Under the pieces are notes generated by a model. The model was given only the letters and a program-made list of their open reading frames with translations, was not told the origin of the DNA and did no database searches. A program made the position numbers and the translations under genes. Below are positions 189 through 6,021 of a DNA stretch of 32,810 nt, one piece after another (the stretch's first letter is position 1; each line of letters begins with the position of its first letter). Source of the DNA: a virus. The stretch covers positions 1 through 32,810 of IMG/VR virus record IMGVR_UViG_3300036851_000073; one strand, 5' to 3'.

Positions 189-268
189 GACTGCTCCAAC
201 GGCTGCATCCTAGAGACCGCGGCCTCGTACTCACCCGCGCGGATCATGTCGGCGATCGTGAGGTTCAT
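185..268 (-). CDS. 27-residue ORF coupled to RAMP-like gene
   Basis: A very short frame (MNLTIADMIRAGEYEAAVSR, then seven more residues) starts at an ATG that overlaps the stop of the 222-residue gene (ATGA) and ends in a TGA that overlaps the GTG of the next gene (GTGA). Such stop-start overlaps recur throughout this operon, which argues that it is translated by coupling. The peptide looks like one amphipathic helix with acidic and alanine residues. No function can be assigned; chance is possible at this length. Confidence 0.45.
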   Translation of the reverse strand: MNLTIADMIRAGEYEAAVSRMQPLEQS

Positions 269-933
269 GCCTTGTCCCACGATGTGACGGTGTACTTGCC
301 GAACCCCTGGGAGCGGGAAGCGCCGATGCCCTGGCGCTCACCGGTCAGCCAGATGTGCGCCCACTGCTCGTCGGTGAACTTGTAGTCCGTCTCGACGGTG
401 AACGCGATCTTGGCGTCGGTAACGTACTCCTCGTACTGGATGCCGGTTCCGCGGAAGGTGTGGACGAATCGCTGGGTGATGCCGCTGGCCTCGGTGACGC
501 CGAGGTGCAGCTTGTCTTCGATGACGTGGACGTGCTCGGCGAGGAACGACAGCAGGCCCTTGTTGGTCTTGCCCCAGCCGCGCATCTCCAGCTTGCCGGC
601 GGCAACGGCGACGGAGGCGGCTTCCTTGAGCGCTGCCTTCAACTGGCGACCCTCAATAAAGAGTCCGTTCTCGTCGCGCTTGAAGCCGTTCAGGTGCTTC
701 TGCGCGTCGACGATCTTGGCGGCCTCGTCGGCGGTGACGCCGCGCTCGGCCATGGTCTCGGCGACCATCTCGCGCAGCAGGTCGTCCTTCGCGCCGAGCT
801 TGGTCCGGAGCCAGCCTTCGGCCACGTTCTGGTCGGTCGGGGTGCCGCCAGCGATGGTGCCGACCAGCAGCGTGCCGTTGAAGCGGTGGGGCCAGGATTT
901 GACGTTGAACTTCTGGAACACGCTTTCAGTCAT
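265..933 (-). CDS. RAMP-like (Cas7-like) phage protein
   Basis: A 222-residue soluble protein. Two features recall the RAMP superfamily of CRISPR RNA-binding proteins. The first is a central segment (FIEGRQLKAALKEA, near residues 92-105) that resembles the [IP]-x-G-x-x-[LI]-[KR]-x-[AG]-[LI]-[RK] motif of Cas7/Csm3/Cmr4 proteins. The second is a C-terminal glycine-rich loop, GERQGIGASRSQGFGKY, which closely follows the GxGxxRxxGFG loop of RAMPs and is followed by a last beta strand. It begins with MTESVFQKFNVKSWP, with AGAGAGAA as ribosome site 9 bases upstream. No cas gene or CRISPR array is visible nearby. It lies in the early operon immediately downstream of a C-rich repeat region. RAMP assignment is by motif only; RNA binding is inference. 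It could be a phage family that shares the loop by convergence. Confidence 0.8.
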   Translation of the reverse strand: MTESVFQKFNVKSWPHRFNGTLLVGTIAGGTPTDQNVAEGWLRTKLGAKDDLLREMVAETMAERGVTADEAAKIVDAQKHLNGFKRDENGLFIEGRQLKAALKEAASVAVAAGKLEMRGWGKTNKGLLSFLAEHVHVIEDKLHLGVTEASGITQRFVHTFRGTGIQYEEYVTDAKIAFTVETDYKFTDEQWAHIWLTGERQGIGASRSQGFGKYTVTSWDKA

Positions 934-1496
934 TTCAGTTCTTCTCTCTGGTTAGTCGGTAAGAGGTGGAGCGGCGAGTGGGGGGTGGGGCTGGGAAGTC
1001 GGATTAGGCGGGGGCAGTCGGTAGTGACTGGATCTGGGTCGGTGCGGGTTGTCGGTGCGGGTAGGGCGGGAAAGGGCTGCGCGGTAGCGGCTTGGCGTGG
1101 GCTGTCGGTGCGGGCGGAGACGACATGGGTGGCGGCGGGTGGTCGGGCAGGCGAGGGCTGACGGGGGCAGGTCTGCGGTGGGCTGGGCAGTCGGGTAGGG
1201 GCGGATGCGGGCGGGGATGGCGCGCGTCGGCACGGGTCGTCGGTGAGGGGTGATACGGGGCGACGCGGGGTGGTGTGGGACGTCGGGTGGGGGACGAGTT
1301 GGGTGGAACTGGGCTGGGGGGTCGGGCTGGGGACGAGTTGGAGAGGACATGGCTGGGGCAGTCGGGATGGGCAGGGCTGAGATGGAAAGACGAGGGCGGG
1401 CCTGGGAAGTCGGGACGGCTGGGGACGAGACGGGAAGGGAGGACCAGGGAAGTCGGGTAGGTGTGGGGTCGAGGCGTATTGGGGGGGCATGGGTCG
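934..1496 (-). repeat. C-rich CCGACTNCCC repeat region upstream of RAMP-like gene
   Basis: About 560 bases without a convincing gene. On the minus (transcribed) strand the sequence is strongly C-rich and carries about 15 copies of a motif near CCGACTNCCC. On the plus strand this reads as GTCGG cores beginning near 955, 998, 1017, 1038, 1051, 1104, 1142, 1190, 1226, 1239, 1282, 1321, 1361, 1409 and 1452. Most steps are 36-53 bases, with a few inserted extra copies. A second word, CTCGTCCCC, occurs three times between the motifs (plus-strand GGGGACGAG near 1291, 1330 and 1421). The last copy ends 16 bases before the ATG of the RAMP-like gene. Spacers are not conserved and the copies fall in different reading frames, so repetition is at nucleic-acid level. 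The plus strand is rich in GGG runs and could form G-quadruplexes. Possible roles are a replication origin with iterons, a structured or unstructured leader RNA, or a protein-binding array. Confidence 0.75.
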
Positions 1497-2033
1497 TCAG
1501 GCGGCCTTGTTCTTGGGCGCTCGGATCGACGAGCGCAAGCGGAGGTACTCGTCCTCGGTCAGGACGTCTGCGGTGGTCTTGCCAGCGGGGATGCGCTTCG
1601 CAACCGCACGATGAAAGGCGGCCTCGAACAGCGCGGCATTGGAGCGCTTCACGTGCTCGCCAGCGACGAACAGGTGATCCGCGCGCGTCATGTCACCGAG
1701 GCGTCGGCGGAGCATGTCGTCGCTGACCACGAAGTGCAGGTCGAACGCCTTCAGCGCGTCGGAGTCGCCGTCACCGAACCGCTCGGCGGCATCCTTGAAG
1801 GCAGACCGAGGAGCGTCCGCAGCCCGCCTGCCGCGACGGGACCGGGCCTGGTCCCCCAATACCTGAGTCACGAACTGCTCGGCGTTCGCGTTCAGCCAGC
1901 CGGCCAGCAGGGAGGGGTTCGTCTTGCGCAGTTCGGCCACCAGATCGGCAGCCAAGACAGGCAGGATGTAATCCCCGCTGGGGATGCGCTGATCAACGAA
2001 CGCTTGGAATTCGGCCCGGTAGTCGCGTGCCAT
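1497..2033 (-). CDS. Hypothetical early phage protein, 178 aa
   Basis: A soluble, charged protein of 178 residues starting MARDYRAEFQAFVDQ, with AGGAGAGC about 4 bases before the ATG, a strong ribosome site. It is rich in helix formers. An arginine-rich patch (RSRRGRRAA, near residues 63-72) and a basic C-terminus (SSIRAPKNKAA) could contact nucleic acid, but no known domain is recognised. It follows the 82-residue gene by 11 bases and is followed by the C-rich repeat region, which is the main break in this otherwise compact operon. Function unknown. Confidence 0.85.
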   Translation of the reverse strand: MARDYRAEFQAFVDQRIPSGDYILPVLAADLVAELRKTNPSLLAGWLNANAEQFVTQVLGDQARSRRGRRAADAPRSAFKDAAERFGDGDSDALKAFDLHFVVSDDMLRRRLGDMTRADHLFVAGEHVKRSNAALFEAAFHRAVAKRIPAGKTTADVLTEDEYLRLRSSIRAPKNKAA

Positions 2034-4938: not shown

Positions 4939-6021
4939 ATGGCCCACATCCGCAAGCTGAAGTCGGGGAAGTGGCAGGCCACGGTCCGCCACCCCTCCGG
5001 GCAGCGTTGGTCGAAGACTGACCCGTTGAAGCGGGTGGTGCAGCAGTGGGCCAGCGACACCGAGGCGGCGATGCGGCGCGGCGACTTCATCGACCCGGCC
5101 GCCGGCAAGATGACGCTCGGGGACTGGTGGGTGAAGTGGTCCGCCACCCGGCGGGTCGAGTCCGCCACGGCCGCGAAGAACACCTCCCACTGGCGGGTGC
5201 ATGTCGAACCCGCCTTCGGGAGGTGGCCGCTCGCGACGATCAAGTCGTGGGACGTGGAGAAGTGGGTCAGCGATATGGTGGCCGCGAAGGTCGGGCCTCC
5301 CACGGTCGCGGCGTCGCTGAGTCTCCTGACTCACATGCTGAATGCCGCGGTGAAGCACCAGCTGGTCGGCGCCAACCCGGCGTCACTGGTGAGCGCGCCG
5401 ACCGTGCCGAAACACAAGGACCGGTTCCTGTCTCGCGATGAGGCGGCGCGGCTGCTCGACCAGTTCGACGGGGTGAATCGGCTGTTCGTGGAGGTGCTAC
5501 TGGGGACGGGGTTGCGGTGGGAGGAGGCCACTGGTCTGGACGGCCGGCACGTCAACTTCCTCCGCAGGACGATCACGGTGGAGCAGGCACTCGGCAGAGA
5601 CCGGCAGATCAAGCCACCGAAGACCCGTGCCGGCTACCGGGATGTGCCGTTGACCGACGAGCTCACGGAGGGGCTGTCACGGCATGTGGTGAACCTGGCC
5701 AAGCCGGTGTTCCAGCAGCCGAACGGGGAGAGGTTCGACTACTCCAACTGGCGGTCGCGGGTGTGGGTGCCTGCGGTGAAGGCGGCGAACCTGGCGGACC
5801 CGCAGCCGACGCCTCATGATTGCCGCCACACGTATGCGTCGTGGCTAGGTGAGCAGGGTGTGTCGCCTCAGGACCTTGCTGCGCTGCTGGGGCATTCGGA
5901 CTGGCGGATGGTGCAGCGGTACGTCCATTCGTCGGAGGCGCGTATGGACAGGGCAAGGGACGCGTTGGGCGTACCCTCGAACAAGAGTGCCCGGCACAGC
6001 GGCAAGGCTGCACCGGGCTGA
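4939..6021 (+). CDS. int: Tyrosine integrase
   Basis: 360 residues, the usual length of actinophage tyrosine integrases. Residues 1-55 form the arm-binding domain (MAHIRKLKSGKWQATVRHPS). Residues about 58-155 are the SAM-like core-binding domain. Residues about 160-345 are the catalytic domain. The catalytic set is visible: Arg193 (TGLRWEEA), Lys228 (PPKTRAGYR), His293 and Arg296 (HDCRHTYASW), His319 (LLGHSDW) and the nucleophile Tyr328 (QRYVH). It catalyses site-specific recombination of attP with the host tRNA-Ala gene. The attP core lies about 620 bases downstream. The gene follows the small membrane protein by 2 bases. Confidence 0.97.
   Translation: MAHIRKLKSGKWQATVRHPSGQRWSKTDPLKRVVQQWASDTEAAMRRGDFIDPAAGKMTLGDWWVKWSATRRVESATAAKNTSHWRVHVEPAFGRWPLATIKSWDVEKWVSDMVAAKVGPPTVAASLSLLTHMLNAAVKHQLVGANPASLVSAPTVPKHKDRFLSRDEAARLLDQFDGVNRLFVEVLLGTGLRWEEATGLDGRHVNFLRRTITVEQALGRDRQIKPPKTRAGYRDVPLTDELTEGLSRHVVNLAKPVFQQPNGERFDYSNWRSRVWVPAVKAANLADPQPTPHDCRHTYASWLGEQGVSPQDLAALLGHSDWRMVQRYVHSSEARMDRARDALGVPSNKSARHSGKAAPG

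Follow-up and report, generated by a model that had tools for sequence, protein, structure and literature searches.

Class 1 CRISPR-Cas systems (types III and VII) place a Cas7-type RAMP backbone protein beside an array of variable units. In known Cas7 filaments the guide RNA is bound irrespective of its sequence, and each sixth base is flipped out (PMC11127173). TIGR-Tas systems also pair an array of interspaced guide units, which may be phage-borne, with one or two proteins. Their dual repeats yield RNAs of 36 nucleotides (nt), and the Tas protein carries a Nop domain, in some cases together with HNH or RuvC (PMC12045711). Phages additionally encode RNA anti-CRISPRs (Racrs), solitary mimics of a host CRISPR repeat (PMC10651486). 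Here we describe a C-rich non-coding array next to a gene for a Cas7-like protein in a temperate phage. The DNA analysed, called the window, comprises 32,810 nt (positions 1 to 32,810 of IMG/VR record IMGVR_UViG_3300036851_000073). The pairing of array and Cas7-like gene recurs in dozens of phage and bacterial genomes and probably represents an undescribed RNA-guided system unlike CRISPR.

The locus resembles class 1 CRISPR-Cas in several ways. A Cas7-fold protein of the RAMP backbone type accompanies an array made up of anchors and variable units, the content of the units turns over rapidly, and there is a small helical partner gene, comparable with Cas11 by analogy only. Other features differ. 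The identical, usually palindromic direct repeats of ~20-40 bp that mark class 1 arrays were not found. Each unit here carries a register, a fixed C every 5 nt, so units are not verbatim copies of captured foreign DNA, which argues against CRISPR adaptation. CRISPR RNA in class 1 complexes is bound with a 6-nt period, and the 5-nt rhythm here, as read from sequence, speaks against such binding. No other cas gene (Cas10, Cas3, Cas14, Cas5, Cas6, Cas1, or Cas2) was seen conserved alongside, with Cas profiles run on part of the neighbours, and the catalytic aspartate in the loop of type III Cas7 has no counterpart conserved by sequence alignment. By the defining features tested, the module is not CRISPR-Cas. 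It also departs from TIGR-Tas, since the protein has a Cas7 fold, with no Nop match in the Cas7-like proteins, and the units follow a pentamer rhythm. Like Racrs, the array may be a phage-encoded non-coding RNA engaging a Cas7-type protein. Unlike them, it has 15 anchors and shows nothing to suggest that it mimics a repeat, and its Cas7-like neighbour is encoded by the phage itself. Our literature search, in which preprints and subscription journals were thinly covered, found no description of such an array, and an earlier account is possible.

The array and its Cas7-like neighbour

The array fills the gap between two operon genes (934..1496, minus strand). CCGAC occurs 15 times on this strand, compared with a mean of 4.6 and a maximum of 11 in dinucleotide shuffles. 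CCGACNNCCC occurs 12 times (shuffle mean 0.7, maximum 5), and there are six exact copies of CCGACTNCCC. The CCGAC copies, hereafter anchors, have their first base on the minus strand at 1456, 1413, 1365, 1325, 1286, 1243, 1230, 1194, 1146, 1108, 1055, 1042, 1021, 1002, and 959, and are mostly separated by pentamers of the form NNNCC or NNNNC. They are typically 34-53 nt apart, with a few short steps of 13-21 nt, and occupy all three frames. The last anchor covers 959-955, and its motif runs to 950, which leaves 16 nt to the start codon at 933. Base content is 54% C and 16% G. An initial annotation of the window had described a strand-asymmetric array of repeats with variable spacers, in all frames, ending 16 bases from a RAMP-like gene. 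This array is real, and those particulars are borne out. The annotation had missed a 5-nt rhythm of C in the spacers and a Pro-rich open frame across the gap (both described below).

The adjoining gene (265..933, minus strand) encodes a protein of 222 residues. The protein itself is without a Pfam or PHROG match, and searches with its family recovered no curated Pfam, NCBIfam, or PHROG model; relatives give weak profile matches to Csm4, Csm3, and Cas6. An AlphaFold model built with 41 relatives has a predicted local distance difference test score (pLDDT) of 80 and a predicted template modelling score (pTM) of 0.74. In a Foldseek search of the PDB, this model's top matches were type VII Cas7 (best E 2.6e-7) and Csm3 chains. 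VIA-align gave a Z of 12.2, with the Csm3 structure 5yjd at Z 11.3 and a root-mean-square deviation of 2.9 over 139 residues. The PDB matches listed by both programs belong to class 1 CRISPR complexes, mainly to backbone subunits of the Cas7/Csm3 type. Judged by its predicted structure, the neighbour of the array is a true Cas7/Csm3-fold protein. The label "RAMP-like" is therefore right and can be narrowed to Cas7/Csm3-like. Conserved features are R96, K99, K103, K125, R207, and a glycine-rich C-terminal motif, GIGASRSQGFG. Foldseek also recovers the fold in two BFVD entries, A0A8S5R426 (Siphoviridae sp. ctcMb1) and A0A8S5R8I9 (virus sp. ctpeS3).

Recurrence, rhythm, and turnover of the units

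Protein searches yielded viral loci, two bacterial genomes, and then further genomes. An array lies within 3 kb at 54 of the 57 loci that encode the Cas7-like protein, and it is on the strand of that gene in 52 of the 54. The initial annotation had named relatives with the gene and no repeats as a refutation. Two of the three exceptions (L028 and L035) are cut by a contig end that leaves <60 nt upstream of the gene, and the third (L029) comes from a phage, record G039, with arrays at other sites, so the association is not refuted. The test was partly blind, as genome loci were picked by protein sequence only; among bacterial genomes found in this way, 13 of 13 have an array (excluding overlap with the two earlier bacterial genomes). 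In the reverse direction, array-bearing records of at least 56 kb were found by DNA pattern and searched whole, and all six encode the Cas7-like protein. Several shorter array-bearing fragments stop inside the array, with the partner gene A (see below) on the other side. The nearest array is upstream of the Cas7-like gene at 32 loci and downstream at 22. The window, like most of its clade, has it directly upstream. Neither the window nor the small phages G021, G034, and G044 have a strong array call elsewhere. Large phages have arrays on both strands, some tens of kb from the Cas7-like gene. As far as hosts are known, the module is carried by phages and prophages that are mostly actinobacterial; plasmids yielded no homologue of the window protein.

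Within the window spacers, C recurs at intervals of 5 nt (lag-5/10 statistic z = 7.5; 0 of 2000 shuffles as high). Relatives likewise have a C at every fifth nucleotide after each CGAC anchor, as NNNNC or, in GC-rich phages, as NNNCC. The arrays' autocorrelation peaks at 5, 10, 15, and 20 nt and then at 28, 33, 38, 43, and 48, the step across an anchor being 8 nt. Anchor spacing follows 5n+3 and is biased to 3 mod 5 (112 of 268, p ~2e-19), with frequent unit lengths of 28, 33-34, 38-39, 43, and 48 nt. When GC-rich phages are aligned at CCGAC, C reaches ~0.8-0.9 at each fifth position for six steps. A phage of 54% GC sharpens the rhythm to NNNNC: C is 0.84, 0.79, 0.73, and 0.62 at +8, +13, +18, and +23, G there is ~0.03-0.12, and the remaining four positions are near background. 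Moderate-GC relatives keep single Cs, not C-runs. A divergent chromosomal clade has the NNNNC rhythm as well. For 24 of 26 arrays, the predicted RNA structure is weaker than that of the shuffled sequences (mean z +1.1). Between units, the only common sequence is CCGAC plus a weak TNCCC.

The units themselves are replaced quickly. L025 and L027 have Cas7-like genes that are 91% identical, yet their arrays (557 and 932 nt) share one 50-nt stretch. A few units are also shared more widely, between the window and L013 and L015, and between L025 and both L027 and L036. When the shared stretches are aligned without gaps, 0 of 80 fixed-C positions have changed, against 58 of 330 positions at the other phases (~18%; 12-21% by position). 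The stretches are few and were chosen for their similarity, so they demonstrate constraint on the C and not on the free positions. Because units turn over, the sequences suggest a diversified repertoire rather than a fixed site.

Proposed function and its alternatives

The strand-specific C at every fifth base, the weakly structured RNA, and the Cas7-fold neighbour together point to a filament that would step by five and recognise C. We propose that the array is probably co-transcribed with the neighbouring genes and that its RNA would be processed into units of roughly 25-40 nt, each starting at a CGAC anchor. The Cas7-like protein would polymerise on this C-rich RNA, contacting it once every 5 nt, at the fixed C, and leaving four nucleotides per step free. 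The small helical protein may be a partner subunit. In trans, the units would most likely serve as small guides, whose free nucleotides would pair with a target in a competing mobile element or in a transcript of the host. To this reading, a two-protein-plus-array module in which the Cas7-like protein would coat the array RNA in steps of 5 nt and the units are most likely guides, we assign a probability of about 0.55. A fuller version is tentative and stands somewhat below even odds. In it, a stand-alone Cas7-family filament uses a register-coded guide, each 5-nt step of which holds one fixed C and four guide bases, and units are diversified otherwise than by spacer capture and used against rival phages or host transcripts. 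Among the possibilities raised initially, the fold and the strand-matched pairing favour a non-coding transcript to which the RAMP-like protein binds. The sequences and the predicted structure show the rhythm, the fold, the close association on one strand, the invariant C, and the turnover of units; transcription, processing, RNA binding in steps of 5 nt, guiding, and the nature of the target we infer.

If the units are guides, an RNA-guided system exists outside CRISPR that is built on the same Cas7 backbone, phages own guide arrays, and the finding bears on the origin of Cas7 filaments. The fixed-C register would be a sequence code that positions a Cas7-like filament on RNA, and known Cas7 proteins are not reported to use one.

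Several results weigh against this reading. A search of units against their own genomes, covering 523 units with the fixed C masked, gave matches of 0.690, compared with 0.6905 for controls. No excess over controls was seen in ~1.9 Mb of other phage and prophage DNA, again with the fixed C masked. Two shared spacers searched against all of IMG/VR, with N at masked positions, matched in arrays only, and one shared spacer had no match in 198 Streptacidiphilus-order genomes with 3 mismatches allowed. These searches covered limited DNA, and the real pairing rule may differ from the one used. Since targets were sought and none was found, the guide role is one that we infer. Furthermore, known Cas7 filaments step by 6 nt (PMC11127173), whereas the rhythm here is 5 nt. 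No aspartate is conserved near positions 29-41, in the first loop, across 54 proteins (at least 2 of them mis-framed), and no nuclease is conserved beside the module. At 2 of the 54 loci the adjacent array is on the opposite strand.

The main rival, which we consider unlikely, also has the array RNA bound by the Cas7-like protein, without guiding. The RNA would be a scaffold or decoy under no constraint at its free positions. It might, for instance, act as a sponge, poisoning class 1 CRISPR complexes of the host or some other defence that binds RNA. The lack of a target signal in any search agrees with this, as do the nearly unbiased free positions in moderate-GC phages, and there are known RNA anti-CRISPRs by which phages trap Cas6 and Cas7 (PMC10651486). 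A neutral scaffold, however, should align between phages whose Cas7-like genes are 91% identical, and their arrays are almost wholly replaced. In addition, no Rfam family is matched by the array, and the phage supplies its own Cas7-like protein. A decoy, too, would mean a new kind of phage RNA.

Readings that place the function in DNA, in local control, or in protein are less likely. An origin with iterons, a partition or packaging site, or a G-quadruplex/R-loop element would explain a repeated motif with strong strand asymmetry, and G-quadruplex-like motifs do lie opposite GC-rich arrays (8.7 per kb). We nevertheless regard a DNA element as improbable. The array's strand follows the Cas7-like gene in nearly every locus, whichever side the array is on, the 5-nt rhythm is off the 10.5-bp helix, and the strand-specific C is non-palindromic. 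Origin iterons are near-identical repeats in helical phase near an initiator. Here the units are mutually unlike, spacing is biased to 5n+3, and the several dispersed arrays of a genome, on both strands, ill suit one origin, so iterons, as suggested initially, fit poorly and were rejected. The G-quadruplex/R-loop suggestion fares no better: the 54%-GC phage has 0 such motifs in 2.6 kb yet keeps its single-C rhythm. The G-quadruplex prediction that the initial annotation had recommended gave 0-0.4 motifs per kb for arrays from phages with 52-55% GC, again with the rhythm kept, and G-quadruplexes were rejected since the opposite-strand G-runs are not conserved there. A cis-acting leader that controls translation or termination of the Cas7-like gene, by autoregulation or as a Rho-type C-rich site, is quite improbable. 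It would suit an array directly preceding the gene, as the window and most members of its clade have it, with C-rich, G-poor, weakly structured RNA. It is disfavoured by the 22 loci whose nearest array is downstream and by the further arrays tens of kb away in large phages.

Least credible of all is that 934-1496 encodes a protein. A Pro-rich open reading frame (ORF) for 186 residues (930-1490, minus strand) fills the gap, with a plausible start and an ATGA overlap with the next gene, and one or more frames are open in 20 of 27 arrays. The C-rich make-up alone suffices to leave a frame free of stops, and 7 of the 27 arrays have stops in every frame. Codon positions in the ORF are flat (C 0.54/0.53/0.54), which makes it unlike a gene, as the window's real genes are strongly position-biased, and a 5-nt rhythm cannot arise at codon level. 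The region differs from ordinary coding sequence, and a Pro-rich protein was rejected on these two grounds. Gene callers may annotate this frame wrongly.

Partner genes and other genomes

Gene A (1497..2033, minus strand) encodes an all-helical protein of 178 residues that, by profile and structure searches, belongs to no known family. It adjoins the Cas7-like gene in most main-clade loci with enough flank, usually with the array in between. Within ~8 kb, gene A and the Cas7-like gene are the only widely conserved genes. Members give isolated weak profile matches in single sequences, one of them to Prp31_C. As gene A has no fold match in the PDB, it was not filed as Cas11.

A second, divergent clade occurs in Actinomadura family genomes (L220-L230), with a small, probably coiled-coil protein that carries a ADIEAITGQSLDGKTPRELFDLFRAIQ motif and with the array downstream. 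This different small protein is encoded upstream of the Cas7-like gene in 10 of the 12 genome loci examined and is unrelated to gene A by profile comparison. At the divergent-clade loci examined, no further gene is widely conserved beside the module.

Phages of ~90-150 kb combine several dispersed arrays with a single Cas7-like gene: G015 (L190-L194), G039 (L166-L170), and G003 (L174-L181). The sole phage-collection record found with both the Cas7-like gene and an array is Microcystis phage Mae-JY09 (L001; PP395641.1), where the array is downstream. Its genome is 72-73% GC, which ill fits Microcystis, so the host label may be wrong. The window phage itself has an integrase gene at 4939-6021, together with portal, SU10-type capsid, and tape-measure genes.
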